From an uncultured Helicobacteraceae bacterium (GTDB lineage: Bacteria > Campylobacterota > Campylobacteria > Campylobacterales > Helicobacteraceae), in assembly GCA_944323885.1 (NCBI GenBank), contig CALUUD010000002.1, positions 124,001 through 188,000 on the forward strand: DNA of 64,000 bases. The letters are read 5' to 3'. The translations under genes were made by a program, and so were the position numbers. This document shows positions 1,024 through 42,833 of the stretch, piece by piece. The notes beneath the pieces are model-generated. The model searched no databases and was not told the DNA's origin. It saw nothing but the letters and a program-made list of their open reading frames with translations. Position 1 is the first letter of the stretch; each line of letters begins with the position of its first letter.

Positions 1024-1032
1024 GGAAATTTT

Positions 1033-2953: not shown

Positions 2954-3000
2954 GATAAAATACTAGTTTTATTAAAATAAACACAAAGAGGTAATTTAGT

Positions 3001-3471: not shown

Positions 3472-3485
3472 GAAAGGATTTTTAA

Positions 3486-4034
3486 TTGTCTGTTAAAATA
3501 ACTTGGATCTTTGCTTGTATATTTACCATAATATTTGTTTTAGCAAATTATGCTGTACAATTTAATATAGGCTCCTCAAATCTTACATATGGTGCCTTAG
3601 TTTATCCAATTAGTTTTGTATTGCTTGATGTGTTAAGTGAAAAGTATCATAAAAAAGATGTGATAAGAATTGTTAGATATGGTGTCTTGTTGTCATTTAT
3701 TCCATCATTTTTTATATCGCAACCTTCAATTGCCATTGCATCAATTTGTGCTTTTTTAGTTTCACAGCATTTAGATGTTTATATTTTCTTTGCATTAAAG
3801 AAGATGTTTCCAAAATTATGGTGGCTTAGAAATAACCTATCTACTATTATAGCTCAACTATTTGATACTCTTATATTTTTTCATATAGCATTTTGGTTTG
3901 AACAATCTTGGAGCTGGATTCTTATAACTGCATTATTAGACTTTAGCATAAAGGTTATTTCAAGTTTTGCTAGCACCCCATTTTTTTATATTTTTGCAAT
4001 AAGGGTAAAACGCAATATTGTTTTTCATAAGTAA
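3486..4034 (+). CDS. YhhQ/VUT-family queuosine precursor transporter
   Basis: 182 residues with about six hydrophobic segments. The pattern matches the VUT (YhhQ) family: an early FVLANYAVQFNIG segment, then LTYGALVYPISFVLLDVLSEKYHKK, where the loop after the second helix is the family hallmark. Members take up queuine or preQ bases used to modify tRNA. The start is TTG preceded by AAAGGA at 3473-3478. It is slightly shorter than the typical 200-230 residues of the family, mainly at the C-terminus. It is the last gene before the hydrogenase operon, separated from it by 108 bases. Confidence 0.75.
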   Translation: MSVKITWIFACIFTIIFVLANYAVQFNIGSSNLTYGALVYPISFVLLDVLSEKYHKKDVIRIVRYGVLLSFIPSFFISQPSIAIASICAFLVSQHLDVYIFFALKKMFPKLWWLRNNLSTIIAQLFDTLIFFHIAFWFEQSWSWILITALLDFSIKVISSFASTPFFYIFAIRVKRNIVFHK

Positions 4035-4142
4035 ATATTTTTCATAGTATTTCTTAAAGAATACCTTTAATATTGCTTTTGCGGTGTTAAAGGTTGTATT
4101 ATTATGGAATGGGTTACTTAATTATATTAGGGAGGTTTATAT
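4035..4142. promoter_or_regulatory. Leader and probable promoter region of the hyd operon
   Basis: This 108-base gap precedes hydA. It holds an imperfect 18-base dyad at 4047-4064 (14 of 18 positions symmetric), a TATTAT hexamer at 4097-4102 that could serve as a -10 box, and a strong ribosome binding site GGGAGG at 4130-4135, 7 bases before the ATG at 4143. Two half-sites of the Helicobacter NikR type (TATTATT at 4097-4103 and AATTATA at 4120-4126) are present, but the spacer is 16 bases instead of the 11 recalled for the H. pylori consensus. No start site can be fixed by eye. Confidence 0.4.
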
Positions 4143-5303: not shown

Positions 5304-5321
5304 AATTAGGGAGATTTTGTA

Positions 5322-26828: not shown

Positions 26829-27754
26829 AAATAGTTGATTATCTTATATATATCTTAGCAAACATTATTGGGTTTGGCTTATCTATACTTGGAGATAAGT
26901 TGTTCTATTTTAAAGTAAAAGTTTTGGCATTTATCTTTAAGATTTTTGATAGAAGGCGTAAATATGATTGTCTTAATAATTTAGAATTTGCATATAACGA
27001 TACTTTAGATTATAGAAGTAAAAAAGAAATATTAAATAGATGCTATGAAAATTTTGCTTTTGTTTTATTAAATTCTCTTAGACTTTTATTCATGAAAAAA
27101 GAAAAATATTTGCAAAAATTTAAAGTACACAATATTGAGGTGTTAGAAGAAGCAATTAGTAGAGGTAATTTTATCATACTAACTGCACATTATGGTGATT
27201 GGGAAGGGACTGCTAGGTTTGTGGCATCAAATTTTAAAGATATTACTCTTAGTGTAGTTGGTCGATTAACAGAATTTAAATCTATAAATTCATTAATGGA
27301 AAAATCAAGACAAAATTTTGGTTCTAAGTTTTTAGATAAAAAAGGCGTAAGCAAACATTTAGTAAAGTTATTATCAAAACCAAATAATGCTATAGGGCTA
27401 GTAATAGATCAACATATATCTATAAATGAAGGTGTATGGGTGAATTTTTTTGGTAAAGATGTGACACATAGTCCGATAGCTTCTATATTGTCTAGAAAAT
27501 ATGATATTCCTATATTGTTTGTTCATACTACATTAAGCATAGATTATAGTCATTATGATATTTATTTTAATTTTTTAACAAATGCAATAAAGACAGAAAA
27601 TGCCAAAGATGATATAAATAAGATGACACAAATCCAAGCTAGCTTTACAGAAAAGATAATAAGACAAAAGCCAGATGAATGGTTTTGGTTTCATAAAAGA
27701 TTTAAAGCAAAATATGATGATATATATAAAAGAAAACCAAAGGAAAATATGTGA
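26825..27754 (+). CDS. lpxL: Lipid A late acyltransferase (LpxL/HtrB family)
   Basis: 309-residue membrane-associated acyltransferase. The catalytic HxxxxE motif appears as AHYGDWE, and the LVIDQHISINEGVWVNFFG region matches the second conserved block (normally DQ-DxGxFVxFFG). One N-terminal membrane helix is present (about 5-25). It adds a secondary acyl chain to lipid A in related bacteria. The start is GTG, overlapping waaC by four bases; the end overlaps the methyltransferase by four bases. Confidence 0.9.
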   Translation: MKIVDYLIYILANIIGFGLSILGDKLFYFKVKVLAFIFKIFDRRRKYDCLNNLEFAYNDTLDYRSKKEILNRCYENFAFVLLNSLRLLFMKKEKYLQKFKVHNIEVLEEAISRGNFIILTAHYGDWEGTARFVASNFKDITLSVVGRLTEFKSINSLMEKSRQNFGSKFLDKKGVSKHLVKLLSKPNNAIGLVIDQHISINEGVWVNFFGKDVTHSPIASILSRKYDIPILFVHTTLSIDYSHYDIYFNFLTNAIKTENAKDDINKMTQIQASFTEKIIRQKPDEWFWFHKRFKAKYDDIYKRKPKENM

Positions 27755-28494
27755 AGAATCTATGGGATAAAAGAGCGAAGAATTTTCCTAGATATGATAA
27801 AAATCTTAAAGAAGATAAAATTATATTTGATTTTTTCAATGCCAAAGAGGTAAATTTAAAAGATAAAGTTATACTTGATCTTGGGTGTGGAAATGGTAGG
27901 TATGCTTTACATTTAGCAAAACAAGCAAGACTAGTATATGCATTTGATATATCAAGTGAAATGATAGAAAATGTAAGAAATGATGCAAAATCCCATAAAA
28001 TAGATAATATAGAATGTTTTTGTGGTGATTGGAATGATTTTGATGTAAGTAGATTCTTGCAGCCTATAGATATCGTGTTTGCATCCCTTACACCTGCATT
28101 AAATAGCTTTGAAAAGTTTAAAAAAGCAATTAATATTGCAAAAGAAGGTATGATGTATATAGGATGGGGCAATAAGAGAGAAAGTGCCTTTTTGGAAGAG
28201 ATATTTAAGGCGCATAATGCAAAGCTAGAGATACCAGTAGGTGCCAAAGATGTAGAGGGTTATTTAAAAGAGCTTAATATTGAGTTACCAGAAGTAAAAT
28301 TTATAACAAAAAATATAAATAAAAAGAAAAAATTTCAAGATGCAATTAGTGATGCTGTATTTCAGCTAGAAATGCATAATGTAGAGCCAAATAATAGTCT
28401 AATAAAAGACATAATAACTAACAAATGGCTACATAATGATATGGTGGAATATGTAAATATAATGGAAATAGGGATGATGTATATAAAGAATTAG
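27751..28494 (+). CDS. Class I SAM-dependent methyltransferase
   Basis: 247 residues. The SAM-binding loop is VILDLGCGNGRYALHLA (about residues 38-54), followed by an acidic residue ending the second strand (YAFDISSEMIE). Beta-4 reads IDIVFASLTPAL. No substrate-specific domain is recognised. It is the last gene of the LPS transcription unit and starts at GTG inside the previous gene's end. Its stop lies in the perfect inverted repeat at the left edge of the accessory island. Confidence 0.82.
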   Translation: MKNLWDKRAKNFPRYDKNLKEDKIIFDFFNAKEVNLKDKVILDLGCGNGRYALHLAKQARLVYAFDISSEMIENVRNDAKSHKIDNIECFCGDWNDFDVSRFLQPIDIVFASLTPALNSFEKFKKAINIAKEGMMYIGWGNKRESAFLEEIFKAHNAKLEIPVGAKDVEGYLKELNIELPEVKFITKNINKKKKFQDAISDAVFQLEMHNVEPNNSLIKDIITNKWLHNDMVEYVNIMEIGMMYIKN

Positions 28495-28512
28495 AATCTT
28501 TTAAGATTCTAA
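28491..28512. terminator. Perfect inverted repeat between convergent genes
   Basis: TTAGAATCTT at 28491-28500 and AAGATTCTAA at 28503-28512 form a perfect 10-base stem with a 2-base gap. It overlaps the stop codons of the methyltransferase and of the convergent pentapeptide gene, so it could act as a two-way terminator; no long T run follows on the plus strand. The arms are AGAATCT and AGATTCT, the heptamer found over-represented across the window. Confidence 0.5.
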
Positions 28513-29903
28513 TTTGGCACTATGGAGTTTTTGCGTGCAGTTTTTTGGAGAGAGAAAATAATCAAACCTATTACTATTGTATAAATTGTAATTAAAAAAT
28601 TCTCAAGGCCATTATATTTAGTATCTCCAAAAAGATTTGCTATACCAAATATTAGTTGGGGTTTATAGTAAATTGCCAATAAAGTTATCACGGTACCGAT
28701 ACTGGCAAAAACATTAAGCCTTTTATGTCTAGACTTGCATCCAAAACAACATAAAATAAGCATAATAAAAGTACAAGCTATACTAAAACATGCTCCAAAT
28801 GTGTTTAGAAACTCTAATATGCCAATATCTTGAATTGACCTTGAGATAAAATATAATGAGGCAAATAAACCTATGGCAATAACCAACCACTTTAGATTTA
28901 AAAGCAAATCTGTATGATGTTCACAAAGCTTTCTATAAAAGACAAGTTGCCAATAATCTATTTTTTCTTTTAGTGTTTTGTTTTCTTTATAATCTAACTC
29001 TATTTCTTTAGCATATAGTTCATATTTGTGGAATCTTGAGGCTTCAAGTAGATTATTATCCTTTATCAAAGCACTTTTAAAGACCCTAAAAGAATCTCTA
29101 AAATCATTTGCAAATTTATAATCCTCTTTTTCATTATTATTATTTTTATTTTCTAATATTTTTTTAGCTTTTTTTATAGATTTTTTTATACCACTCATAT
29201 TAAAATCCATTTTCATATTTACTGGGTCTAGATTGCCTATAAACTTAGCTTGAGAAAAATTTGGGACTTTTTTAAACTCCACTCCATAAAAACAAGCTAC
29301 TTTTTCAAATTCGCATTCATGAAAATCAGCATAATCTTCAAAAATAGAGTTGTTGAAATAGACATTATCTTTGAATATTGTATTACTAAAATCTATATTT
29401 CCATTGAATTTAGAGTGTTTAAAATTAACACCAGATTCAAATTTTGTATTTCTAAAATTTATATCATTGTAAAACATAGAATTTACAAAGTTTACACTAT
29501 GGTTGAATTTTGTATCACTAAAATCTACATCAGATAAAAATTTACTTGAGATATAAATCTCATTGATATAGTCTAATTTATCTTCTGAAATTAGAAATTC
29601 ACATTCTTTAAAACAAATTTGTTTGTTGAAGTTGCATGATATTATTTTTGCATTAATAAATAATTTACACTCATAAAATTTTAGATTGATATTTATATCT
29701 TTTATAAAAAAATCATTATTAAATTTAATATGGCATTTATAAAATCTTATAGGAATATCAATTTGTATATCACCAAATTCATCTTTTATGATTATTTCTT
29801 TTTTTTCATCGATCGTGTATGATTTATATTGATCTTCATATTGTATATCATTTTCACTTATTGTTAGAGCATTTGCTATCTTTTTTATGTTTTCCCTGTG
29901 CAT
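28509..29903 (-). CDS. Pentapeptide-repeat membrane protein, paralogue 1
   Basis: 464 residues. Residues 1 to about 120 are a beta-rich, charged N-terminal region nearly identical to that of paralogue 3. About 125-220 form a run of pentapeptide-type repeats in which Phe recurs every five residues (pattern VDFSDTKF, VNFKHSKF, IDFSNTIF), expected to fold as a right-handed beta helix. A charged linker with FHKYELYAKE and LKEKIDYWQL follows, then three or four membrane helices (about 333-450) and a basic tail QKTARKNSIVPN. The membrane module matches that of paralogue 2, not paralogue 3. No catalytic motif is seen and the function is unknown. It is the last gene of the minus-strand island. Confidence 0.82.
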   Translation of the reverse strand: MHRENIKKIANALTISENDIQYEDQYKSYTIDEKKEIIIKDEFGDIQIDIPIRFYKCHIKFNNDFFIKDININLKFYECKLFINAKIISCNFNKQICFKECEFLISEDKLDYINEIYISSKFLSDVDFSDTKFNHSVNFVNSMFYNDINFRNTKFESGVNFKHSKFNGNIDFSNTIFKDNVYFNNSIFEDYADFHECEFEKVACFYGVEFKKVPNFSQAKFIGNLDPVNMKMDFNMSGIKKSIKKAKKILENKNNNNEKEDYKFANDFRDSFRVFKSALIKDNNLLEASRFHKYELYAKEIELDYKENKTLKEKIDYWQLVFYRKLCEHHTDLLLNLKWLVIAIGLFASLYFISRSIQDIGILEFLNTFGACFSIACTFIMLILCCFGCKSRHKRLNVFASIGTVITLLAIYYKPQLIFGIANLFGDTKYNGLENFLITIYTIVIGLIIFSLQKTARKNSIVPN

Positions 29904-29926
29904 TGTATATTTTTCCTTATCTCTTT

Positions 29927-31714
29927 CTAATTTGGTATTATAGAGTTTTTTCGTGCGGTTTTTTGGAGGGAGAAAAGCACTAAAGCTAAAAGTATGGTAT
30001 AAATCGTAATCAAAGCATTTTCAAAACCATTATGATTATTATCGCCTATAAGATTTGCGATTCCAAAGATTAATTTTGGCTTATAGAAAATCACCCATAA
30101 AGTTATCACGGTACCGATACTGGCAAAAAAATCAAGCCTTTCAATATGTCCAAACCAACATAAAACAAGCATAATAAAAGCACAAGCTATACTAAAACAT
30201 ATTCCAAATGGGTTTAAAATGCCTAATATGGCAATATCTTGAATTAACCTTGAGATAAAATATAATAAAGCAAATAAACCTATTGTTATAGCTAACCACT
30301 TTAGATTTAAAAGTAAATCTGTATGATGCTCACAAAGATTTCTATAAAAGACAAGTTGCCAATAATCTATTTTTTCTTTTAGTGTTTTTTTGCCTTTATG
30401 TTTTAGCTCTAGTTCTCTAGCATAGAGTTCTTGTGTATGTAGCTCGGAAGCATCTATTAGATTATGATGTGTTATTCTATTACTCTTTAGCTTTCTAAAT
30501 AAATCTCTATAGTTTAACAAACTATCATAATCTTTTATCTCTTTTATTTTTTCATAGCTATATTGTATATATTTATGTTCTATATTAAACTGATTAGAAA
30601 AGGTGCAGTTTTTAAATTGTGGTTTATTGTCAAGATTTGTTTTATCAAATGTCACAATGCCATTAAATACTACGTTATCAAATTCTAATTTGTTAATATT
30701 TAGATTATCAAAGCTTAATATATCTTTGAATGTTGAATTTCTAAAAGTATAGGTTTCTGTATTTTTACAATCTATATCAATAAACTTTGTTTTATTGAAT
30801 TCTGTATAGTGAAATATACAATTATCCAAATTTATATCTACAAACAATACTTCAGCTTTAAAACTTGAGATTTCAAAACTTACCCTTCCTTGAAAATTTG
30901 CACCATTAAAAAATGTATTTCCCTCAAAGATAATTTCTGTAAAATTGTTCTCTATGGTTTTACTATCACTTTGATTAGCTAGGAATTGTGCCAATGTAAA
31001 TCTTGTTTCGCCCTTAAATTGTGAGATTTCAAAACTTACCCTTCCTTGGAATTCTACCCCATCAAAAAATGCTTTCCCTTCAAAGATAGTTTCTCTAAAA
31101 TTGTTTTCTATAGTTTTACTATCACTTTGATTAGCTAGGAATTGTGCCTGTATAAATCTTGCTTCGGCTTTAAATTTTGAGACTACAAAACTTACTCTCT
31201 CTTGAAATATAGCGCTATCAAAATTTACATTCTCTTCAAAGATGACTTCTCTAAAATTATTTTCTATCTCGCTATTGCCTTGTTCTGCTAGAAATTGAGT
31301 TTCTATAAATCTTATTTTGTCTTTAAATGTAGAAGCTAAGAAATCTACTTTACTTCTAAATACTGCTTTAGAAAAATCCACTATGCTTTCAAAGATACAT
31401 TGATGAAATGTGATTGTATTATTAAAACTATATGCTCTAGCAATAATTGGATGCTTAAAATTACAACATTCAAATTTTATATCTATATTTATATCTATTG
31501 TAGTTTCTTTGGTAAAATTAATATATTTTACTTCACTTCCAAAAATATATATTTCTTTTATTTTTTTATCTTGAATTTTTTTAATATTTATTTTATCTAT
31601 TTGAGCAGAGACTATGGTTATCTTATTATTTTGTATCTTTATGTTATCTTCTATCTCCATGTTATCATTTATAGCAAAGATCTCATATTCTTTTAGTCGT
31701 TTATCGTATTCCAT
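29927..31714 (-). CDS. Pentapeptide-repeat membrane protein, paralogue 2
   Basis: 595 residues, the longest of three. The N-terminal region (1 to about 100) differs from those of paralogues 1 and 3. A long pentapeptide-type array (about 100-380) contains a unit of 52 residues repeated in tandem, visible as two copies of FLANQSDSKTIENNF and GRVSFEIS; the corresponding DNA repeats at a 156-base offset. The linker (RDLFRKLKSN, LKEKIDYWQL, NLCEHHTDLLLN) and the C-terminal membrane module with QKTARKNSIIPN are shared with paralogue 1. The ATG follows directly on the decayed end of a type IIG gene, which supplies the ribosome binding site (GAGGGG). Function unknown. Confidence 0.82.
   Translation of the reverse strand: MEYDKRLKEYEIFAINDNMEIEDNIKIQNNKITIVSAQIDKINIKKIQDKKIKEIYIFGSEVKYINFTKETTIDINIDIKFECCNFKHPIIARAYSFNNTITFHQCIFESIVDFSKAVFRSKVDFLASTFKDKIRFIETQFLAEQGNSEIENNFREVIFEENVNFDSAIFQERVSFVVSKFKAEARFIQAQFLANQSDSKTIENNFRETIFEGKAFFDGVEFQGRVSFEISQFKGETRFTLAQFLANQSDSKTIENNFTEIIFEGNTFFNGANFQGRVSFEISSFKAEVLFVDINLDNCIFHYTEFNKTKFIDIDCKNTETYTFRNSTFKDILSFDNLNINKLEFDNVVFNGIVTFDKTNLDNKPQFKNCTFSNQFNIEHKYIQYSYEKIKEIKDYDSLLNYRDLFRKLKSNRITHHNLIDASELHTQELYARELELKHKGKKTLKEKIDYWQLVFYRNLCEHHTDLLLNLKWLAITIGLFALLYFISRLIQDIAILGILNPFGICFSIACAFIMLVLCWFGHIERLDFFASIGTVITLWVIFYKPKLIFGIANLIGDNNHNGFENALITIYTILLALVLFSLQKTARKNSIIPN
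30941..31252. repeat. 156-base tandem repeats inside paralogue 2
   Basis: A block starting with AAAATTGTT at 30941 recurs at 31097 with the same downstream sequence at a constant 156-base (52-codon) offset and only scattered substitutions. A weaker third unit appears farther right, near 31250, where AAATTATTTTCTATCTCG replaces the conserved start. The offset preserves the reading frame, so the array lengthens the beta helix without breaking the protein. Confidence 0.7.
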
Positions 31715-31860
31715 TTATTTCCCCTCTATAATTTTTATTCATCTTTAGTTAGATTGTAGAGTTTATAGACTACATTATTGATTTTAGATTCTAGTTCTTT
31801 TAAAAATCTTTTATTTTAGATTCTAAGATTTGATCTAATAGATGATTGGGTATTTGCATT
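31715..31860 (-). pseudogene. Decayed 3' end of a second type IIG restriction-modification gene
   Basis: This gap aligns base by base with the last part of the intact type IIG gene at 36197-36340. Translated on the minus strand it reads QILESKIKD, then after a one-base frameshift KELESKINNVVYKLYNLTKDE, against QILDSKAKD and KELESKIDNLVYTLYSLTDDE in the intact gene. A premature TAA follows KDE. The final TAAATGG arrangement, where the stop leads straight into the next ATG, is also kept, here serving paralogue 2. About 45 codons remain; the rest of the gene is gone. Confidence 0.75.
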
Positions 31861-31872
31861 TTTATATCCTTT

Positions 31873-33321
31873 CTAATTTGGCACTATAGAATTCTTTCTA
31901 ATCGTTTTTATAAAAGAAAACAAAACAAAACCAAAGCATATTGTGTAGATTCCGCCAAGAGTGCTTAGCGGGTCTAAAAGTGCTCTTTTGTCAGTAAAGA
32001 TTCCCATTGCTGGTATAAGAATCTTGGGTGAGATGAGTAGGATACCGATCACAGCAACATACGATATGCCTATAAAGAATCCCCTTATATATTTACATTT
32101 TACGCTTATTGATAAAAGCAAAATGACTAAATAAATGGCTAGTATAAAAAGATTAAATATGACTGCACATAGAGTGTGCATCTCTACAAAGGATTGGATA
32201 TGTGCGTTATAAAAATCCTTTACCATATAGAGATGAGAAAATATCGACTCATATCCTAAGCAATACTTAAAGCCTATAATCACTCCCAAACTCACTAAGC
32301 CAAAAAGTCCTATGACTAGCATTAGCGAATTGAAACTTTTTAAAATATCTGTATGATGCTCACAAAGATTTCTATAAAACCATAATTGCCAATAATCTAT
32401 TTTTTCTTTTAGTATTTTGTTTTCTTTATAATCTAGCTCCATTTCTTTAGCATATAGTTCATATTTATGGAATTCTGAAGCATCAAGCAGATTGTTATCC
32501 TTTATTAAAGCACTTTTAAAACCCCTAAAAGAATCTCTAAAATCATTTGCAAATTTATCTAGCGACTTCTTATTGTCATTGTTATGTTCTTGTTTGATTT
32601 TTGCTTCTAATTTATCAAAATCAAAATTTAGATTTGCATTTGCTATATTTAAATTACTTTTAAATATAGCTTGAGAAAAGTTTGGTGTCTTTTTAAATGT
32701 TACTCCATAAAAACTTGCAGTTTTTTCAAATTCACATTCATGAAAATCAGCATAATCTTCAAAAATAGAGTTGTTGAAATAGACATTGTCTTTGAATTTG
32801 AATTTATTAAAGTTTGGTGTCTTTTTAAATGTTACTCCATAAAAACTTGCAGTTTTTTCAAATTCACATTCATGAAAATCAGCATAATCTTCAAAAATAG
32901 AGTTGTTGAAATAGACATTGTCTTTGAATATTGTATTACTAAAATCTACACTATGTAAAAATTTACTTGAGATACGAATCTCATTGATATAGTCTAATTT
33001 ATCTTCTGAAATTAGAAATTCACATTCTTTAAAATAAATTTGTTTGTTGAAGTTGCATGATATTATTTTTGTATTAATAAATTTACACTCATAAAATTCT
33101 AGATTGATATTTATATCTTTTCTAAGATTATCATTATTAAATTTAATATGGCATTTATAAAATTTTACAGGAATATCAATTTGTATATCACCAAATTCAT
33201 CTTTTATGATTATTTCTTTTTTTTCATCGATCGTGTATGATTTATATTGATCTTCATATTGTATATCATTTTCACTTATTGTTAGAGCATTTGCTATCTT
33301 TTTTATGTTTTCCCTGTGCAT
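31873..33321 (-). CDS. Pentapeptide-repeat membrane protein, paralogue 3
   Basis: 482 residues. The first 110 residues are almost the same as in paralogue 1, then the array is shorter and contains a 44-residue unit repeated twice in perfect tandem (FKDNVYFNNSIFEDYADF, ECEFEKTASFYGVTF). The linker (FANDFRDSFRGFKSALIKD, YELYAKEMELDY) is again shared, but the membrane module (about 330-470) is different from paralogues 1 and 2, with four or five helices and another long loop. The extreme C-terminus KTIRKNSIVPN is the same. This is a mosaic of known parts. Function unknown. Confidence 0.82.
   Translation of the reverse strand: MHRENIKKIANALTISENDIQYEDQYKSYTIDEKKEIIIKDEFGDIQIDIPVKFYKCHIKFNNDNLRKDININLEFYECKFINTKIISCNFNKQIYFKECEFLISEDKLDYINEIRISSKFLHSVDFSNTIFKDNVYFNNSIFEDYADFHECEFEKTASFYGVTFKKTPNFNKFKFKDNVYFNNSIFEDYADFHECEFEKTASFYGVTFKKTPNFSQAIFKSNLNIANANLNFDFDKLEAKIKQEHNNDNKKSLDKFANDFRDSFRGFKSALIKDNNLLDASEFHKYELYAKEMELDYKENKILKEKIDYWQLWFYRNLCEHHTDILKSFNSLMLVIGLFGLVSLGVIIGFKYCLGYESIFSHLYMVKDFYNAHIQSFVEMHTLCAVIFNLFILAIYLVILLLSISVKCKYIRGFFIGISYVAVIGILLISPKILIPAMGIFTDKRALLDPLSTLGGIYTICFGFVLFSFIKTIRKNSIVPN
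32677..32929. repeat. 132-base in-frame tandem duplication in paralogue 3
   Basis: Bases 32677-32797 and 32809-32929 are identical over 121 positions, at an offset of 132 bases (44 codons), separated by 11 bases that belong to the unit. The absence of any substitution points to a recent duplication by slippage or unequal recombination. The reading frame is preserved. Confidence 0.9.
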
Positions 33322-33340
33322 TGTATATTTTTCCTTATCT

Positions 33341-33401
33341 CTTTCTAATTTGGTATTATAGAGTTTTTTCGTGCGGTTTTTTGGAGGGAGAAAAGCACTA
33401 A
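33341..33401 (-). pseudogene. 17-codon tail of a lost pentapeptide gene
   Basis: On the minus strand this reads VLFSLQKTARKNSIIPN and a stop, the exact C-terminus of paralogue 2. The DNA from inside paralogue 3's start through 33401 is identical to the stretch from inside paralogue 1's start through the end of paralogue 2 (to about 29983). Identity stops at 33401, one base before the stop codon of the beta-family gene. It marks a recombination joint. Confidence 0.85.
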
Positions 33402-34469
33402 CTAATAATATGAAATTTGTATTTCCAATGCTTTTCTATGTAAGTTAATGCAATTTGAGATCATTTTGCTTATGTAGATATTATTTCTCACTGAAATCCA
33501 AAAAGCAGGATTTTTTCCTGCAACATAACCTTCTTTTGCATCTAGAAAAACTTTTTCTCCCCAAGTTGGTTCTTTTTCATTAATTAATATCTCAATCTCA
33601 TTATAAAGCTTCTTTGCACATTCAATATATGCATGTTCAGTATCTATAGTATCAGAAGTTCGATATCTACAATACCAAAATTCTATTCTATTATTTTTTA
33701 CGCTTGGAATATCAATTCTGGGAATCCAGCCTCTAGCTTGCATATCATATCTCCTAGCTGTAGTAAGTGTATAATCACCATAATAAACATTAGGGAATTC
33801 TCCATAGAGGCGACTGAATCCTAAATCACATTTTTTAATTTCTCCCTCATCTGAGATTGGAATTGTTGGAGGAAAACAAGAAAAAGCGTAAATTATTGCT
33901 TTAATTTTAAAGTCTGAAATTTGTTTAATATAATTAAAAAAATCAAAGTCTTTTTGTTGATTTTCAGCATCCAAAATCACAATACATTTATCTAGGTATT
34001 CCTCTATTGCATCGAGATATTTATGATTATCTGGATCTAAAGCATTTAATCTTAGTGCTAAAGTTGGAAATTTTATGCTTAAAGCTTTTATTTGCGTTAA
34101 AACATCATCCATGCAATCAGGATTATAGTGAATACATGGAATAAAATTAAGTCCTAACTCATTATATTTCATGACAAAATCTACCCATTTTTTGTAGCCA
34201 TCATTATTGGATGATAACATATTTTGTATTTCATCATTATCGAGAGTTTCTTCTGTAGTTAAATCTAATATGAAGTAATTTTTGTCAAAAATCCTAGATA
34301 CTTCTTCCATTTTCTTTTCAATAGAACCTTTTTTGTTTTTTTGAGTTATTCTTGATCTTGTTAGCTCTAAAATTGGCAATATTTTTACTTTATCTGTCTT
34401 TGATAATTTCTCATATGCTCTCAACTCTGCATCACGACTTTTTAAAATTGGAAAATAATAAAACTCCAT
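33402..34469 (-). CDS. Beta-family (sce7725-like) protein
   Basis: 355 residues, soluble. The start EFYYFPILKSRDAELRAYEKL, followed by KILPILELTR, matches the phage-type beta protein family (PF14350 as I recall it). Members are found in phages and mobile islands, often beside ImmA/IrrE peptidases, and have no established activity. The remaining protein alternates strands and helices in a barrel-like way (FILDLT, LNFIPCIHYN, LALRLNA, CIVILDAE, KAIIYAF). The ATG follows directly on the stop of the ImmA/IrrE gene. The stop codon is at the recombination joint with the pentapeptide tail, so its original 3' end may have been altered. Confidence 0.75.
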   Translation of the reverse strand: MEFYYFPILKSRDAELRAYEKLSKTDKVKILPILELTRSRITQKNKKGSIEKKMEEVSRIFDKNYFILDLTTEETLDNDEIQNMLSSNNDGYKKWVDFVMKYNELGLNFIPCIHYNPDCMDDVLTQIKALSIKFPTLALRLNALDPDNHKYLDAIEEYLDKCIVILDAENQQKDFDFFNYIKQISDFKIKAIIYAFSCFPPTIPISDEGEIKKCDLGFSRLYGEFPNVYYGDYTLTTARRYDMQARGWIPRIDIPSVKNNRIEFWYCRYRTSDTIDTEHAYIECAKKLYNEIEILINEKEPTWGEKVFLDAKEGYVAGKNPAFWISVRNNIYISKMISNCINLHRKALEIQISYY

Positions 34470-35015
34470 TTAATATTCCTTGAGATATCCTAATTTAAAA
34501 GCACGATACTTGATTGCTGCAGACGAAACTTGAAAAAAATCAGCTAAACCATTTATTTTATTATTTCCTTTCCTTATTTCAGTTTCAAATACTTCTTTTG
34601 GCATTAATAAGTCCGCAGCAAATTGATTAGCTTCTAATTCTTTTTTATTTCCAGCATCATTACTAGATCGAAAAAGGATAATGTCTTCAAGCTTATTGCC
34701 TTGTTTTAAAAATTCTTTATGTAAAACAAAATGTGCAAATTCGTGTGCTAATGTAAATCTTCTTCTTGATAAAGAATGATATTTATTTACAACTATTTGA
34801 TATATACCACTAAGCTTATACTCTATTTTACCTGAAATATCATTATCAAAATAATCTTCCCAATAATCAATTTCTGGAATATTTCTAATATAAGCAAATA
34901 TATCAAAAGGTTTAGTTTCAATTCCTATTTTTTTTGCGTGTTGATAAATTTCATTAATGGTTTTCTTATTGTAAGGATCTAAATTTTTATTTCCCTTATT
35001 GCTAATAAAAGCCAT
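34470..35015 (-). CDS. ImmA/IrrE-family metallopeptidase
   Basis: 181 residues. The zinc-binding motif is HEFAH (91-95) within RRRFTLAHEFAHFVLH, and the third ligand is probably Glu in KELEANQFAADLLMP. A C-terminal segment NGLADFFQVSSAAIKYRAFKLGYL is the usual family tail, resembling a helix-turn-helix. Known members cleave repressors or regulators in mobile elements (ImmA of ICEBs1) or respond to damage (IrrE). No separate repressor gene lies beside it, so the target may be one of its operon partners. Confidence 0.9.
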   Translation of the reverse strand: MAFISNKGNKNLDPYNKKTINEIYQHAKKIGIETKPFDIFAYIRNIPEIDYWEDYFDNDISGKIEYKLSGIYQIVVNKYHSLSRRRFTLAHEFAHFVLHKEFLKQGNKLEDIILFRSSNDAGNKKELEANQFAADLLMPKEVFETEIRKGNNKINGLADFFQVSSAAIKYRAFKLGYLKEY

Positions 35016-35030
35016 TTATGTTCTCCTTAT

Positions 35031-35573
35031 TTATTCTTTGAAAGGTATTTCTAAATCTTTGCAACCCAATGTTTTTATTTTTTCTATTTCTCTAGTGAGG
35101 TTGTCAAGTTGATTTTTAATTGCTCCAATTTCTGTTATTAAGTTATTTTCCGAATATTCTCTGGCAACTTCTTCGATTATTTTCTTTACTTCCACTTCTT
35201 TATCTGCTAGAAATTTTTTAACTTCTTCTCTTGTTTTATTTTCAATATCTCTCATATTTTCGTCGTTTTTTCGTTTTAGGTAAAAAAATGATGAGATTCC
35301 AAATAAACCAATAATTGCTGATAAAATCAACACAAAATTATTGTAGTAGGAAATATAAAAACCAAAATAATCTTTTGCTGAAATCAATTTGCTTTCACTA
35401 ATTAATTGTTCCAGGTTTTTGCTAATATCTTTTTTTGTATCAATTTGATTTCCTATTAAAAAAATGCTTTGTAATATTTCTTCATAGGTGAACCATAATG
35501 TAAGAAAAAATAAAACGAAAAAAATCAAAGTCCAACAAGTTAGGATAAAAAAACCAGATGACAAAAATTTCAA
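35031..35573 (-). CDS. Two-TM coiled-coil protein
   Basis: 180 residues. Two hydrophobic helices (about 5-30 and 74-97) enclose a polar loop of about 45 residues, and the C-terminal 80 residues are a highly charged coiled coil (EEVKKFLADKEVEVKKIIEEV, then IGAIKNQLDNLTREIEKIK). No family is recognised. Both termini would be cytoplasmic. The gene overlaps the sce7726-like gene by four bases (ATGA) and is followed by the peptidase gene after 15 bases, so it is part of the same set; it may act as a membrane-bound sensor or anchor, which is inference only. Confidence 0.72.
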   Translation of the reverse strand: MKFLSSGFFILTCWTLIFFVLFFLTLWFTYEEILQSIFLIGNQIDTKKDISKNLEQLISESKLISAKDYFGFYISYYNNFVLILSAIIGLFGISSFFYLKRKNDENMRDIENKTREEVKKFLADKEVEVKKIIEEVAREYSENNLITEIGAIKNQLDNLTREIEKIKTLGCKDLEIPFKE

Positions 35574-36196
35574 ATTTTTTCCTTAATAATAGAGGTTTTC
35601 CCTAACAATAAAAATAAATCATCGGGATGTATTGTATCAGAATTCTCTTGTAATTCATTCTTTAGTAGTAAAAAATTTTCCAAAAAGCGATATTTTAGCT
35701 CATTAATAATCATTTCTTTAAATTCATTTTTTTTCAAATGTTGAATAATATAATGTCGAATCTTAAAAGAACTTTGTCTGCTATTCTTGCGATATTCATT
35801 GAGTTTGATTTGTGTAATGAAAAATGTTTGATAATATGCATTGGGAGTGTTCTTTGTGGGTTTCTTTTTTAAGATAAATTTCCTTGTTTGATCATTAAAA
35901 ATAATAATACCTACATTGTGTGGTAATTTTAAATCAAAATTTAAAAATTTTTGATCAAGTATTACATACACCTTATCACATATTTTGAGATAATCTTGTA
36001 TTTGCCCATCAAGCTTTGTAAGATTATCTTTCTTAGATTTAATTTCATAGCCAACAATATTTCTTTTTTCTATGGTTAAAATATCAAGTTTTCGTTTTCC
36101 TCTAATAACTGGAACTTCTATAGAGGCTAACAGTAACTCTTGTTTTTTTTTGATTAATTCTTGTAAGAATAAACACTTAATTCGTTTTTCTTCCAT
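35570..36196 (-). CDS. sce7726-like protein with PD-(D/E)XK-type motif
   Basis: 208 residues. The N-terminal half has the layout of a restriction-endonuclease fold: RKLDIL with D38, then IVGYEIKSKKDNL with E51 and K53, and a QIQDYL segment with Q65. This matches the sce7726 family as I recall it, whose members are predicted nucleases of mobile DNA. The C-terminal half is helical and unassigned. The ATG follows the stop of the type IIG gene without a gap (TAAATGG), and the ribosome binding site GAGGGAG lies inside that gene's last codons, so translation is coupled. Confidence 0.75.
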   Translation of the reverse strand: MEEKRIKCLFLQELIKKKQELLLASIEVPVIRGKRKLDILTIEKRNIVGYEIKSKKDNLTKLDGQIQDYLKICDKVYVILDQKFLNFDLKLPHNVGIIIFNDQTRKFILKKKPTKNTPNAYYQTFFITQIKLNEYRKNSRQSSFKIRHYIIQHLKKNEFKEMIINELKYRFLENFLLLKNELQENSDTIHPDDLFLLLGKTSIIKEKI

Positions 36197-39100
36197 TTAT
36201 TCTCCCTCTATGATTTTAATTTCATCGTCGGTTAGGCTATAAAGGGTATAGACTAGATTATCGATTTTGGATTCTAGCTCTTTGGTGGTGGGGTCTTTGG
36301 CTTTGGAATCTAAAATTTGCTCTACTAGGCTTATGATTTCATCGCTTAGGGCTTTGTTTGTAGAATCTATTTTGGGAATAGGAAGTTTTTCAATCTTGTC
36401 TTTTGCACCATAAGCATAATGTCCTGTTTGCACTAAATTTGTTATTTGTGTAACAAGCCATTTGTATAATGCAGAATTCATCAAACCTAAAATATATGAT
36501 AAATTGACACTGCTTGTAGTCATCATAAAAAGAGAATTATTGAAATATAATTCATCTTTGAGATAACTAAACAAATATTCTCCACTCACAGGATTCCATA
36601 CAATCTTTTCTTTTTCAAATTCCTCGTGATAAGCGATATTGTCTTGCGTTTCAAACCATTTGTTAGTTGTCTTTTTTCTACAACCTTTTTCGCCACTTTG
36701 GTTAATCCTTGGGCGAAAAGATTCTAAATATGTTTTTAATGCGGGATAATCATCTATATCTAGCTTTAGACTTGGAAAAGTGCATATCAACCACAATCCC
36801 GCCCATTCATAGCTGTAGCGTTTGATGTCTCTACCGCGTAGCATTTTGCGTATGAGTTTGGCGGTGCGTTCTTTTTCGGCTTCATCTTTACATTTAGCTA
36901 AAATTTCATCTCTTTTTTCAGTAGTGATGATAAAGGCTTCATTGTAGCCTGTTAAGATTCCACGATAAATAGATATATCCCATTCTTTTAGCGGTGTGCC
37001 AAGGCTTTCTATCTTTGCCTTTAGGTTTTGGGTGGCTTCATCGCTAAAATGGAAGCCTTCTTTACTAAGGGAGCTTTGCTTTAGCTTTTGGGAGTTAGAT
37101 TCATAGAGTGAATTTTCTTTGATTTCTTTTGGTGCAAGGTAGCAAAATGTAGTATCTTTTTTTGGCTTTTTCTTTTTAAAAGATATGATACTTGTATCTA
37201 CACTAGCACTATCAAATACCTTTATGCCATTTAGATTTATGTAGTTTAGGATTGTAGTATTTTCTAAGATAAATTCTCGCAAACTCTCTCCATATCCTGA
37301 GCGTGCGTATTTGTTGCTTGTGATAAAAGAGAGAATGCCACTATCTTTTAGGACTTTGTGTCCTAATTCAAAAAAGTAGGTATAAATATCACTTGTGCCT
37401 TTGTAGATCTTATATGCTCTTTTTAGTGATGGTTTTAGCTCTTTGATATCTTCTTGGCGGATATAAGGTGGATTGCCAATCACACAATCAAAGCCTTTAA
37501 AATCTCCACTTTCATCTAGCACTTCTGGGAATTCAAATCTCCATTCAAAGGGCTTGTTTGATTCTAGATTAAAGATAGAGTTGTATTTGTCTTGCAGTTT
37601 TGCAAAGTCGATTTGTGCTTGTTTTTTGTCAAAATCATCATCAAAGATACTTAGAGATGCCTTTATGTATAAGGCTAGATTCTTGTCATCTTTTGCTAGG
37701 TAGTTGCCGTATTTTTGGCTATAGATATCACACTCTTTTTCAAAGGCTTTTATCTCTTTTTCAAACTTATCTCTAAAGCAGAAATTTTTAAAAGCATCTT
37801 TTAGGTTTTTTATCTCTTTATCTATGGCATTTTTACTAGTGTAGAATCCTTGCTTATAATTTGAGACAGATGTTTTGTAGTCTTCTATCTTTTGCTTGAT
37901 ATTTTTATAGTGGCTAAGGCTTTGAGTGATATCAAAATAAGAGATAAGAGAATTCCCACACTTGATATTTATATCTATGTTTGGGAGGGTTTGGAGTGTA
38001 TTTGTATTGTTATCATTTTCAAAGATATAGTAGCTATATTTAAGTAGCTCTATCCAAAGGCGTAGCTTCGTGATTTCACAAGAGTTTGGATTGATATCTA
38101 CACCAAAGAGGCAAGATTCTATTATTTCTTTTTTTAAGTGGAAAAGCTCTTTTTGGATTTTGTGTTGTATCTCATCTTTATTATTTGGTTTTTGGTAGTT
38201 GAATATATCTTCATCTTGTTTTATTACTATTTCATCATTTTCTAATCTTAGAGTAGTTTTTAGATTAAAAGATTCTAATAGTCCTATCTTATAGGCAATA
38301 AGCACTATTTCATTTAGTGCAGATACTAGAAAATGCCCACTACCTACTGATGGATCACAAATCTTTAGGCTAAGAAGTGTTTGGAGTAGTTCTTTTTGGG
38401 ATTTGTTGTTTTCTCTAGCTAGATTTGATATATCTTTTAGCCCTCTTGCATTCCAATTGTATGTATCATTGAATTTATTTAATACTGCTTGTGTGATACT
38501 CTCTTTGCACATATAGCTTGTAATAAAGCTTGGGGTATAGAAGCTGCCTTCTTTGTAGCCATTTAGCTTTTCAAAGACTAGCCCTAAGATGGATGAATTT
38601 ATGAGTTTGTCGTGGTTTATTTTGATATTGTCTTTTATGTCTTTTGGTGTGGTGGTGAAATCATATGTATGCAAAAATCTAAATATATACTCTAGCAATG
38701 GAAGCTCTTTTTCCTTTAGCACGCTTTTTTGGTATAGTGGTATAGTGTAGGATTCTAAGTGCTTTATGTCATTGCCATTTAATTCTAATTGTGTTTTGTC
38801 AAATAAGCTTGAGTTTAGATAAGGTATGTAGTGGAATAGCTTTTTATCATCTATATTTCTATCATTTTCTTTTTTTGCCAATACCCCAAAAAATAGCCTT
38901 GATAGTGTAGAGAAGTTGTTTATTTTTTCTATATCTAAAAATGGCTCTTTGATGTGTCCAAATGATATAAGCATAGATTCTAAAAGTCGCAAGAATAAGA
39001 TTCTATTATTCCATAGTATAATAAGGCTAAATACCTCTTCATCGCTTATATTTGGAAAGGCATTTTTAATGCTATTAGATAGTGAGTTTTGAGTATTGCT

Positions 39101-39874
39101 TAGCTTGATTAGAATCTTGCCATTTTCTTTTATTTCTTGTAATCCTAGTATATATAAAAGCTCATCATAGAATTTTTTATGTAGGGTGTTTGCATCTATT
39201 ATTTTATTTTTCTTTAGTAGTATTTCTGGGCTTAGTATTTGATAGATTCTAGATAGTAAAAGATCATCTATATCTTTTGTAAGTTTAAAATGTGTATATT
39301 TTATGGTTTTATCAAAATTATTTTTTAGATGGGATTCTAAGTCTTTATAGAATTTACTTGTGCTTTTATCTACCCCTTCTTTATTGTCGCAATTATTGTA
39401 GTATCGCTTAATAGTTTTGTCTTCTATAAAAACTCTAAATTCATCCGCACAAAATACAAAAAAATCAATAGGATTGCATATTATTATGTGTTTTATTTCA
39501 TTGTTGTTATTTTGGTTGTATTCTCTTAGGAAGTAAAGAATGCTTTCATAAAATGCTTTTGATAAGGGATTATTAGCATCTTTTGGGAATTCATTTTTAT
39601 TTTTTAGTTGTTTTGCTTCTATTATTACTTTTACTATATTGTCATCATATATTGCAGAATCTATATTGTCTTTTTCATTGATTTTATATCCAAATGTATT
39701 TTTTAATAAATCATTTATTTCATTTTTTTGATACCCCTCTCTTTCTTGTTTATCTCTTTCTTCTATGTATGATAGATAATATTTTTTAAAGTTTTTTATT
39801 TGTGCATCTTTTGGTGTGGTTGTTTTGTATTTTTCTATGAATTTATCTATATCAATGTATTCAAATTTGATCAT
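36197..39874 (-). CDS. Type IIG restriction-modification protein (Eco57I-like)
   Basis: 1225 residues from the ATG at 39874, which has AGGGA about six bases upstream; an in-frame ATG 66 bases earlier lacks a good site. One chain carries both activities. An N-terminal nuclease core is suggested by IDSAIYDDNIVKVIIEAKQL (D near 72-79, E86, K88). The N6-adenine methyltransferase follows with motif I DPSVGSGHF (507-515) and motif IV NPPYI (801-805) in DCVIGNPPYIRQED. The C-terminal third (about 980-1225) is the target recognition part. The site recognised cannot be told from sequence. No frame break or long homopolymer is seen, so it should be functional. First gene of the minus-strand island. Confidence 0.92.
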   Translation of the reverse strand: MIKFEYIDIDKFIEKYKTTTPKDAQIKNFKKYYLSYIEERDKQEREGYQKNEINDLLKNTFGYKINEKDNIDSAIYDDNIVKVIIEAKQLKNKNEFPKDANNPLSKAFYESILYFLREYNQNNNNEIKHIIICNPIDFFVFCADEFRVFIEDKTIKRYYNNCDNKEGVDKSTSKFYKDLESHLKNNFDKTIKYTHFKLTKDIDDLLLSRIYQILSPEILLKKNKIIDANTLHKKFYDELLYILGLQEIKENGKILIKLSNTQNSLSNSIKNAFPNISDEEVFSLIILWNNRILFLRLLESMLISFGHIKEPFLDIEKINNFSTLSRLFFGVLAKKENDRNIDDKKLFHYIPYLNSSLFDKTQLELNGNDIKHLESYTIPLYQKSVLKEKELPLLEYIFRFLHTYDFTTTPKDIKDNIKINHDKLINSSILGLVFEKLNGYKEGSFYTPSFITSYMCKESITQAVLNKFNDTYNWNARGLKDISNLARENNKSQKELLQTLLSLKICDPSVGSGHFLVSALNEIVLIAYKIGLLESFNLKTTLRLENDEIVIKQDEDIFNYQKPNNKDEIQHKIQKELFHLKKEIIESCLFGVDINPNSCEITKLRLWIELLKYSYYIFENDNNTNTLQTLPNIDINIKCGNSLISYFDITQSLSHYKNIKQKIEDYKTSVSNYKQGFYTSKNAIDKEIKNLKDAFKNFCFRDKFEKEIKAFEKECDIYSQKYGNYLAKDDKNLALYIKASLSIFDDDFDKKQAQIDFAKLQDKYNSIFNLESNKPFEWRFEFPEVLDESGDFKGFDCVIGNPPYIRQEDIKELKPSLKRAYKIYKGTSDIYTYFFELGHKVLKDSGILSFITSNKYARSGYGESLREFILENTTILNYINLNGIKVFDSASVDTSIISFKKKKPKKDTTFCYLAPKEIKENSLYESNSQKLKQSSLSKEGFHFSDEATQNLKAKIESLGTPLKEWDISIYRGILTGYNEAFIITTEKRDEILAKCKDEAEKERTAKLIRKMLRGRDIKRYSYEWAGLWLICTFPSLKLDIDDYPALKTYLESFRPRINQSGEKGCRKKTTNKWFETQDNIAYHEEFEKEKIVWNPVSGEYLFSYLKDELYFNNSLFMMTTSSVNLSYILGLMNSALYKWLVTQITNLVQTGHYAYGAKDKIEKLPIPKIDSTNKALSDEIISLVEQILDSKAKDPTTKELESKIDNLVYTLYSLTDDEIKIIEGE

Positions 39875-40009
39875 AAAAGTCCCTATTTTTTTAAATATTC
39901 TTGATGTGTATTTAAAAATTTTCAGGTAAAAATCTATCAAAAAAATCTAAAAAATATACATAATTTATTAAAATAACGATTTTTAAATATTTTTTAATAG
40001 GTGGTAATT

Positions 40010-41122
40010 TTGCAAGAGTTAGATTATTATGAAGTATTAGAAATTTCAAAAACAAGTGATAAAGAGATTATAAAAAAAGCATATAGAAAATTAGCTCTTA
40101 AATATCACCCAGATAGAAATGCAGATGATAAAGAAGCAGAAGAAAAATTCAAACTCATTAATGAAGCATATCAAGTATTAAGCGATGATAGTAGAAGAGA
40201 AATATATGATAGATATGGCAAGGCTGGATTAGAAAATAGTGGATTTAGTGGGTTTAGTGGCAAAGATTTTGGTGATGTTTTTGGTGATATAGGTTCTATA
40301 TTTGAAAGTGTGTTTGGTCAAGGATTTAGTAGAAAAAGTCAAAGAAATGAATTTGAAGATGATATTGTATTAGAACTTAATTTGAGTTTCAAAGAGGCAG
40401 TGTTTGGCTGCAAGAAAGAAATAAAAAATAAATATAAAAAATATTGCCAAGCTTGCAAAGGTAGCGGTGCAAAAAGTAAAGAAAAGTGCAAATATTGTGG
40501 TGGTGAGGGTAGGCTATATAGCAGAAATGGATTTATGACTTTTACACAAACTTGTTCTCATTGTATGGGTAGTGGAGAAACTATAAAAGATAAATGCAAT
40601 GTTTGTAATGGTAAAAAATACTCAATAGCAGAGGAAACTTTTAGCATAGATATTCCAGAGGGTATTGATACAAATAATAGAATAAGAGCTTCACAGCGTG
40701 GAAATGAGCTTCCAAATGGCAAGAGAGGTGATTTGTATATCATTATAAATGTTGAAGATGATGATCATTTTATTCGTGATGGAAGTGATGTATATATAGA
40801 GATACCAGTATTTTTTACAAATATAATACTTGGAGGGACTATAAAAGTGCCATCTTTAAGAGGTGAGCTCGAGCTTAAAATACCTCAAAATACACAAGAT
40901 AAAGAAAGATTTGTTTTTAAAGATGAAGGTATAAAGCATTTAAATAGTTCAAGTAAAGGTAGATTTATAGTTCAAATAAAAATCATGTATCCAAGCGAAA
41001 AGCTAACTGCTGAACAAAGAAAAATAGCAGAACAATTACATGAATCTTTTGGTCAAAAAAGTGAGCCACATAAGACTATCTTTGATACTTGTATAGCAAA
41101 AATAAAAGAATGGCTTAATTAG
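40010..41122 (+). CDS. dnaJ: Chaperone DnaJ
   Basis: 370 residues from a TTG at 40010, chosen because AGGTGG ends five bases before it and the protein then begins QELDYYEVLEI; the in-frame GTG at 40001 would lie inside that ribosome binding site. J domain with HPD at 33-35, a Gly/Phe-rich region (about 70-105), and four zinc-finger repeats (CQACKGSG, CKYCGGEG, CSHCMGSG, CNVCNGKK; the last lacks the final Gly). It is the usual Hsp70 co-chaperone. dnaK and grpE are not nearby. It is transcribed away from the type IIG gene with a 135-base AT-rich gap that contains no recognised CIRCE element. Confidence 0.95.
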   Translation: MQELDYYEVLEISKTSDKEIIKKAYRKLALKYHPDRNADDKEAEEKFKLINEAYQVLSDDSRREIYDRYGKAGLENSGFSGFSGKDFGDVFGDIGSIFESVFGQGFSRKSQRNEFEDDIVLELNLSFKEAVFGCKKEIKNKYKKYCQACKGSGAKSKEKCKYCGGEGRLYSRNGFMTFTQTCSHCMGSGETIKDKCNVCNGKKYSIAEETFSIDIPEGIDTNNRIRASQRGNELPNGKRGDLYIIINVEDDDHFIRDGSDVYIEIPVFFTNIILGGTIKVPSLRGELELKIPQNTQDKERFVFKDEGIKHLNSSSKGRFIVQIKIMYPSEKLTAEQRKIAEQLHESFGQKSEPHKTIFDTCIAKIKEWLN

Positions 41123-41129
41123 GTAATCT

Positions 41130-42833
41130 ATGGAAATAGATATTTTTGCAATAGGTGTGCTTACAATTTGTATTACTGTTATTGTTAATATATTTTGCAA
41201 AAGAGTTAATATCCCAATTGTAATTGGCTATATATTAACAGGTGTAATAATAGTTTATGCTTTTAATCTAAAAGCAATCTCATCTGCAGGTGAATTAAGC
41301 CATGTAGCAGAATTTGGGATCATCTTTTTGATGTTTGTGATAGGGCTTGAATTTAGTTTTGATAAATTTAAGACTATGAAGCAAGAGACACTTTTATTTG
41401 GTATATCACAGATATTTGCTTGTTCTGTAGTGTTTTTTGTTTTGTGTTATTATGTGGTTGGTCTTGATTATAAAACATCATTTGTTATCAGTTCGTCATT
41501 TGCACTAAGTTCCACTGCTATTGTATTAAAGAGTTTTGATAATCAAATATATTCTAGCTATCAAAAAAATTCTATTGGAATTTTGATTATGCAAGATATA
41601 GCAGTTATACCACTTTTGCTTGTGATTCCTGCTATGAATGCAGATTCTAGTTCAAATATAACAGATATTGCACTTACTACAATAATAAGTGCAGTTATTG
41701 TAATAGCTATTCTTATGATACCTGGCAAATATGCAGCATCAAAAATATTAGGTCTTGCAGCTGATACAAAAATGGATGAAATATTTGTATCTACTATTTT
41801 ATTGATAGTTCTTGGTGCTTCTTTTGTTAGTCAATATTTTGGTTTTTCACATTCACTTGGAGCTTTTATTGCTGGAATGGTTATAGCCGGAACTGATTAT
41901 AAATATAAGATTAGAGCAGATATAGAGCATTTTAAAGATTTATTTTTAGGGTTTTTCTTTATTACTGTTGGTATGCAAGTTGATATATTTTTCTTTTTAA
42001 AGCATATAGTTGTTATTCTTGTATTGCTTGTAGTTGTTATTTTGATAAAAATGTTTGTAATTTATTGGACTATTAGAATCTTTAGACAAAAAGAAGAGGC
42101 ATTTAAGACGGCATTAAGTCTTTCACAAATTGGAGAATTTTCATTTGTTGTATTTTTACTTGCTAGTAAAAATAATATATTTAGTGGAGAATTTGCTAAT
42201 TCAATCATTCCCTTTATTGCAGATTACAAAATAAGCGCTAATGATTTAAACCAATATTTAACATTGCTTGTTATTTTATCAATGGTTGTTACGCCATTTA
42301 TACTAGATAGAATAAAAGATATAACAAGATTTGTATTTATGGATTCTAAGATTGATGATGTAGTTAATGATCAGGTGCAAGATCCTAATGATTATAGTGA
42401 TTATGTAGATCATGTAATTATTTGTGGGTATGGAGTATTTGGTCAAAGTGTTGCTAATTATCTAAAAGAACATGATATAAATTATATAGCAATAGATCAT
42501 AACTATACAAAAATACAAGATGGCTTAAAAAATGGTGATAATGTTGTATTTGGGAATATTGTGCAATCAGGAATTATAGAAAAGCTTAATATAAGGCAAT
42601 GTGCAGCTGTAATTATAGCTATTGATAATAGCTATAAGATAAGAGATATTTGCAAAATTTTATTAGATAAGATACCAAATTGCAATATAATTGCAAAGAT
42701 TAATGCAAAGGCAGAGGATGGCAATATAGATGATTTGAATTTATATGGAGTTGTCGATGAAAGATTGGAGATTGCAAGGATCTTAGGTCAAGAAGCTATA
42801 GTTGCAAGAGAAGAAAAATTAAATAAGGGGTGA
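41130..42833 (+). CDS. CPA2-family cation:proton antiporter with TrkA-N domain
   Basis: 567 residues. Roughly twelve membrane helices (1 to about 390) carry CPA2 marks such as GYILTGVI, FLMFVIGLEFS, SSTAIVLKSF and HSLGAFIAGMVIAG. A cytoplasmic Rossmann domain begins at about 430 with HVIICGYGVFGQSVANYL, the NAD-binding loop of TrkA-N. It resembles KefB/KefC and Na+/H+ antiporters of the same family, so the ion (K+ or Na+) is not certain. It follows dnaJ by seven bases and precedes pepF by four. Confidence 0.9.
   Translation: MEIDIFAIGVLTICITVIVNIFCKRVNIPIVIGYILTGVIIVYAFNLKAISSAGELSHVAEFGIIFLMFVIGLEFSFDKFKTMKQETLLFGISQIFACSVVFFVLCYYVVGLDYKTSFVISSSFALSSTAIVLKSFDNQIYSSYQKNSIGILIMQDIAVIPLLLVIPAMNADSSSNITDIALTTIISAVIVIAILMIPGKYAASKILGLAADTKMDEIFVSTILLIVLGASFVSQYFGFSHSLGAFIAGMVIAGTDYKYKIRADIEHFKDLFLGFFFITVGMQVDIFFFLKHIVVILVLLVVVILIKMFVIYWTIRIFRQKEEAFKTALSLSQIGEFSFVVFLLASKNNIFSGEFANSIIPFIADYKISANDLNQYLTLLVILSMVVTPFILDRIKDITRFVFMDSKIDDVVNDQVQDPNDYSDYVDHVIICGYGVFGQSVANYLKEHDINYIAIDHNYTKIQDGLKNGDNVVFGNIVQSGIIEKLNIRQCAAVIIAIDNSYKIRDICKILLDKIPNCNIIAKINAKAEDGNIDDLNLYGVVDERLEIARILGQEAIVAREEKLNKG

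Follow-up and report, generated by a model that had tools for sequence, protein, structure and literature searches.

Four consecutive minus-strand genes at positions 33402–36196 of the window (the 64,000-nt stretch of DNA from an uncultured Helicobacteraceae bacterium analysed here) are real genes that form one conserved unit. We give a probability of roughly 0.6 to our overall explanation, that this cassette is a self-contained anti-phage module of the abortive-infection type, a four-component form of the gop-beta-cII/PD-lambda-2 kind, working broadly as set out below. We are highly confident of the family and of its assignment to defence; the exact switch that we propose is offered far more tentatively.

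The four genes of the cassette

The cassette lies behind a type IIG restriction gene (36197–39940, minus strand). Read along the minus strand, it consists of gene 1, encoding a nuclease-like PD-(D/E)XK protein of the cII/sce7726 family (35570–36196; 208 aa); gene 2, encoding a two-transmembrane (two-TM) protein with a long C-terminal coiled coil (35031–35573; 180 aa, from a TTG start); gene 3, encoding a stand-alone ImmA/IrrE (M78) zinc metallopeptidase (34470–35015; 181 aa); and gene 4, encoding a Beta protein with a predicted TIM-barrel fold (33402–34469; 355 aa). The first-pass annotation had described TAAATGG and ATGA junctions between these genes. We found TAAATGG at both the IIG/cII and ImmA/Beta boundaries, but the overlap of the cII and coiled-coil genes reads TTGA rather than ATGA, and 15 nt separate the coiled-coil gene from the ImmA gene. 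Family assignment was firm for three of the four genes (PF14350, PF06114 and NF033832, each above its cut-off), whereas profile searches assigned no family to gene 2. No Rfam family was found in positions 27000–42000 of the window. Promoter and terminator consensus counts did not rise above those of shuffled sequence.

Gene 1 scored 90.9 bits against NF033832 (curated cut-off 70), the sce7726 family, which is a name-level family without an assigned mechanism, and it also matched the PADLOC cll profile (7.7e-18) and the Pfam MmcB-like family PF06319 (24.2 bits, cut-off 22). A sequence search returned no solved structural relative. The nuclease-like motif D38/E51/K53 predicted earlier held up: the D ... 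E-x-K motif is present, and D38, E51 and K53, along with D57 and Q65, are invariant in all 42 cII homologues (16–88% identical to the window protein), with E27 nearly so. Because the PD-(D/E)XK motif is strictly conserved, gene 1 likely encodes an active nuclease. By eye, we also inspected three Campylobacterota cII genes that have no PF14350 partner (L119, L123 and L126), and all three adjoin divergent Beta-like proteins. At L119 (405–2229), the gene after a sce7726-family gene (299 aa) encodes a divergent Beta-like protein of 323 aa that may belong to the sce7725 family, a pairing which suggests that the cII-Beta association extends beyond PF14350.

Gene 3 matched Peptidase_M78 (PF06114; 81.8 bits, cut-off 22) and PADLOC capP (6.4e-28), and its profile matched the solved structures of CapP (7t5t) and IrrE (3dte). 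The predicted zinc peptidase site, HEFAH, was borne out by conservation, since the HExxH residues H91, E92 and H95 are invariant in all 35 ImmA homologues, as is H99; E126 is nearly invariant. Among PADLOC profiles and solved structures, the protease domain is thus closest to CapP of the CBASS pair CapP/CapH and to IrrE of the PprI/DdrO type. Those systems include a repressor, whereas none of the four cassette genes encodes a helix-turn-helix repressor; two relatives of the cassette (L089 and L090) do carry a separate Xre gene alongside ImmA, Beta and cII. As the cassette has no repressor, the substrate of ImmA is likely to be a partner protein, either Beta or the coil.

Gene 4 scored 109.6 bits against Beta_protein (PF14350; cut-off 27) and 1.8e-40 against PADLOC beta, and is 27% identical to the Beta of satellite P4. 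An AF2 model folded it into an alternating beta/alpha barrel (pLDDT 89.8, pTM 0.91). The model matched many unrelated TIM barrels (VIA Z 11–12), while Foldseek returned nothing that reached E 0.001; because the matches are this generic, we did not assign a function to Beta from its fold. Nor did we accept it as a relative of autolytic lysozymes, as that profile match was weak (E 0.065). D232 is invariant in Beta, and D69, R140 and D167 are nearly so; all four map within predicted strands or at strand ends, positions expected of the active or binding site of such a barrel. A scan of viral sequences with P4 Beta recovered only close P4 copies.

The gene 2 product has hydrophobic segments near residues 8 and 81. 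Its AF2 model (mean pLDDT 72.5) comprises one helix at residues 6–36 and a single long helix at 66–170, consistent with a first TM segment followed by a second that continues into the coil. The alignments used for structure prediction left out plasmid and phage sequences.

Recurrence across genomes and the island site

The first-pass annotation had suggested examining neighbourhood conservation around the two-TM protein, and the same gene set was found in distant genomes. A coiled-coil search gave matches in 6 of 198 genomes, including the window's own; two matches in G197 were discarded as weak and apparently spurious, the inspected locus consisting of unrelated genes. The order cII-coil-ImmA-Beta is identical in G016, G059, G036 and G174. 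A scan of genome contigs with the Beta alignment returned 13 loci, one of them the G016 contig (Helicobacter sp. 10-6591); the other 12 carry a TM coil-ImmA-Beta unit with a convergent cII, and their hosts are Marinomonas, Shewanella, Alteromonas, Vibrio, an alphaproteobacterium, Omnitrophota, Planctomycetia and five Bacteroidota. The same arrangement also occurs on a Persicobacter plasmid (L042) and on a viral contig from IMG/VR (L029). Overall, cII is usually convergent to Beta, as in P4, and is the first gene of the operon in Campylobacterota. Every one of the 19 gene 2 homologues precedes ImmA-Beta. The earlier view of the two-TM coil as a core member was right.

The 13-locus scan was biased in that it began from Betas resembling that of the window; a second sample was therefore drawn with PF14350, from 7 of 397 Campylobacterota genomes together with genomes sampled from the class or phylum to which each of three further hits belongs. 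After leaving out the search centres, 26 Beta-bearing genomes were counted. Of these, 18 have ImmA immediately upstream of Beta and 20 have cII next to Beta; the complete four-gene set with a two-TM gene occurs in eight (five of them Campylobacterota). All seven Beta-bearing Campylobacterota have cII, compared with 22 of 397 Campylobacterota overall. Three loci (L085, L095 and L097) lack cII and retain the TM-ImmA-Beta unit. Two loci showed rearrangements: L085 (5595–9693) carries a tandem duplication, reading two-TM gene-ImmA-Beta-ImmA-Beta with no cII nearby, and in Aeromonas caviae (L044, 4977–8498) Beta is split by the insertion of two opposite-strand genes, so this copy has probably been inactivated.

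Over the 18 loci with all four genes, pairwise distances of the four proteins correlate at 0.94–0.96 (0 of 2000 permutations), falling to 0.48–0.74 among distant pairs only. These correlations support co-inheritance but do not prove contact, because shared organismal descent adds to them. The same set recurring in distant genomes makes the cassette more than a chance assembly. Were it simply four unrelated genes accumulated in a defence island, single members might be dispensed with, and indeed P4 lacks ImmA and some loci lack cII; yet the same neighbours recur across several phyla, their frames overlap or abut, and their divergence is correlated, which leaves this the least probable account we considered. 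As the first-pass annotation had argued, the genes form one coherent module; it recurs across several phyla in defence-gene surroundings. Scanned neighbours of the cassette in other genomes matched PDC-S46, PDC-S41, type I and type III restriction enzymes and a PD-T4-6-like kinase.

In the window, the island site (27755–40000) lies between a lipid A acyltransferase-like gene and dnaJ. The site is empty in a sister species (G001), where the acyltransferase gene of the left flank directly adjoins dnaJ; in G004, also a sister species, the cassette is absent and the site is occupied by pentapeptide, IIG and globin-like genes, and in G002 different genes precede dnaJ. With one relative empty at this site and another carrying other contents, the site is variable and the cassette is an insert in its own right, flanked by the IIG and pentapeptide genes. 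We also weighed whether the IIG gene and the cassette could form one extended BREX-like restriction system with the four genes in an accessory or control role, as their adjacency in the window and in G059 would allow. This is very improbable: at this site G004 has a IIG and a pentapeptide gene but lacks the cassette, and in G174 and most distant copies the cassette occurs without a IIG gene. We accordingly rejected the IIG gene as a part of the cassette. In G059 (L012, 5167–8891) the IIG gene is spread over three overlapping frames (173, 687 and 442 aa) and for this reason is probably broken or phase-variable; the adjoining cassette is intact. Beside the cassette in the window (28509–33321) are three tandem paralogous pentapeptide-repeat proteins with C-terminal TM segments (464, 595 and 482 aa). 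Single relatives of these stand beside the cassette in G016 (L011) and beside the IIG gene in G004 (L113), and the pentapeptide genes are possibly a further island gene.

Relation to gop-beta-cII and PD-lambda-2

Satellite P4 carries gop-beta-cII, a system that makes E. coli resistant to lambda and P1; its gop is toxic when beta is missing, so that the two behave as toxin and antitoxin (Rousset et al. 2022, PMC9122126). Each of the three P4 proteins is recognised by its PADLOC profile (gop, beta or cll). In the P4 record, the gene for the 133-aa Gop abuts beta, and cII is convergent and annotated as sce7726 family. Since genes 1 and 4 of the cassette match the cll and beta profiles of gop-beta-cII, the initial impression that the set was unlike any named system did not stand. 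The cassette shares with P4 its Beta and cII homologues, a small two-TM coiled coil immediately upstream of the Beta unit and, in most distant copies, a cII convergent to Beta. It differs in having ImmA/IrrE between the TM gene and Beta, in a TM protein with no sequence match to Gop and, in Campylobacterota, in a cII that is the first, co-directional gene. Because P4 manages without ImmA, the protease is dispensable in some versions.

Gene 2 occupies the slot where P4 has Gop and has the same architecture, Gop itself being a two-TM coiled-coil protein as judged from its sequence and a hydropathy count. PADLOC gop nevertheless matched neither window gene 2 nor 17 homologues, and hhalign of the gene 2 family against P4 Gop gave a probability of 1.2%, with a shallow Gop alignment; as neither supports homology, we rejected gene 2 as Gop by sequence. 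Over TM2 and the coil, the gene 2 family does align with another group of two-TM coils (A12; hhalign 80%, E 1.4e-5). On sequence grounds, the cassette is best described as a variant of the gop-beta-cII kind; we did not file it as a member because its membrane protein is not Gop by sequence. Among open-access journal papers, searches for the name gop-beta-cII found the 2022 paper (PMC9122126) and one passing mention, and no paper or experiment on the ImmA-containing form was found there.

The toxin-antitoxin behaviour of P4 gop/beta (PMC9122126) also fits an addiction module that stabilises an island or element and confers phage resistance as a by-product, as does the occurrence of copies in P4-like elements, phage, plasmids and loci with repressor-like genes. 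Against this, both P4 gop-beta-cII (PMC9122126) and PD-lambda-2 (PMC9519451) gave phage resistance when tested, and many copies sit among other defence genes. We therefore consider addiction as the primary role improbable.

The gene before ImmA varies by locus and may be a two-TM coil, a HigB-like gene, DUF6932 or Xre. At L083 and L091, a HigB-like gene, an Xre-ImmA fusion and Beta occur together and match PADLOC PD-Lambda-2 A and B, with L083 also matching PD-Lambda-2 C. L081, L086 and L093 are hybrids of a DUF6932 gene, a long ImmA fusion, Beta and a convergent cII; the L081 fusion, the only one scanned from these loci, matches PADLOC PD-Lambda-2_B. Inspected by eye, the DUF6932 proteins of these three loci contain a G-S-F ... 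D-x-D-like stretch that recalls nucleotidyltransferases, and a PADLOC PDC-M63A match was noted. Loci without ImmA comprise P4, P4-like contigs, a Pasteurella phage and two Campylobacterota loci (L040 and L041), which have repressor-like genes nearby and a coiled-coil protein with a C-terminal TM in the slot. At L041 (7012–9960; G332), this 121-aa protein in the Gop slot is followed by Beta and a convergent cII.

In the cassette as in PD-lambda-2, an ImmA-domain protein immediately precedes a Beta-family protein and is itself preceded by an exchangeable gene. PD-lambda-2, however, has a HigB-like protein and an Xre-ImmA fusion, whereas the cassette has a membrane coil, a stand-alone ImmA and cII. 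Pfam and PADLOC gave no match to the HigB-like PD-lambda-2 A among the four cassette genes. Gene 3 aligned with the ImmA part only of the PD-lambda-2 B profile (residues 87–171 to profile positions 292–372; 3.1e-07) and is without the Xre part, for which its 181 aa leave no room. Gene 4 matched PD-Lambda-2_C over its N-terminal half (1.9e-10), far more weakly than PADLOC beta. Because a component of PD-lambda-2 and cII occur together in the DUF6932 loci, we argue that the two named systems, gop-beta-cII and PD-lambda-2, appear to be versions of a single modular plan.

A possible switch

Under our working model, Beta would restrain the two-TM coil effector as long as the cell is not infected, in the way that P4 Beta restrains Gop. 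The ImmA protease would be switched on by a cue from the phage. This may be single-stranded DNA, which activates the ImmA-family proteases PprI and CapP (PMC10904395). Once active, the protease would cut Beta or the coil. The freed membrane effector would then harm the membrane and halt the infection. The PD-(D/E)XK protein would have nucleic acid as its target: it might generate or detect the cue, or it might attack the DNA of the phage.

The first-pass annotation had cast the membrane coil as the sensor, with ImmA as a switch and the cII nuclease as effector, a design in which Beta would serve as scaffold or antidote. The strictly conserved motif of cII is in keeping with a nuclease effector, and of the four components gene 2 varies most (mean distance 0.78, versus 0.61–0.70 for the others, over 18 loci), as sensors often do. 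However, the toxic protein in P4 is the two-TM one (PMC9122126), three loci keep TM-ImmA-Beta without cII, and the gene 2 slot otherwise holds toxin-like genes (HigB). We thus find a sensor coil unlikely; since P4 Gop, which is toxic without beta, is also a two-TM coiled coil, gene 2 is by analogy more likely an effector (toxin) than a sensor.

In PD-lambda-2, the ImmA-fused B is toxic alone and is rescued by A, and the Beta-type C is required for defence and not for toxin neutralisation (Vassallo et al. 2022, PMC9519451). Because C is needed in this way, the role of Beta may be to sense and not just to neutralise a toxin. The toxicity of B, and not of A, does not map simply onto a membrane-toxin model.

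More broadly, and at somewhat less than even odds in our judgement, gop-beta-cII, PD-lambda-2 and the four-gene form could constitute one superfamily, in which an ImmA-Beta(-cII) core would sense and switch, an exchangeable slot would supply the effector (membrane coil, HigB, DUF6932 and others), release would commonly proceed through ImmA proteolysis, and Beta would be a ligand-binding or catalytic TIM barrel. The interest of the cassette lies in its protease-containing form and in the link it provides between two named systems: both were discovered independently in E. coli as phage defences, both include a Beta gene that lacks an explanation, and loci that mix their parts connect them. The cassette represents a widespread module of defence, recognised only in part by the PADLOC profiles applied here because its membrane component has no profile match, and the four-gene form offers a direct test of toxin control by Beta and ImmA.
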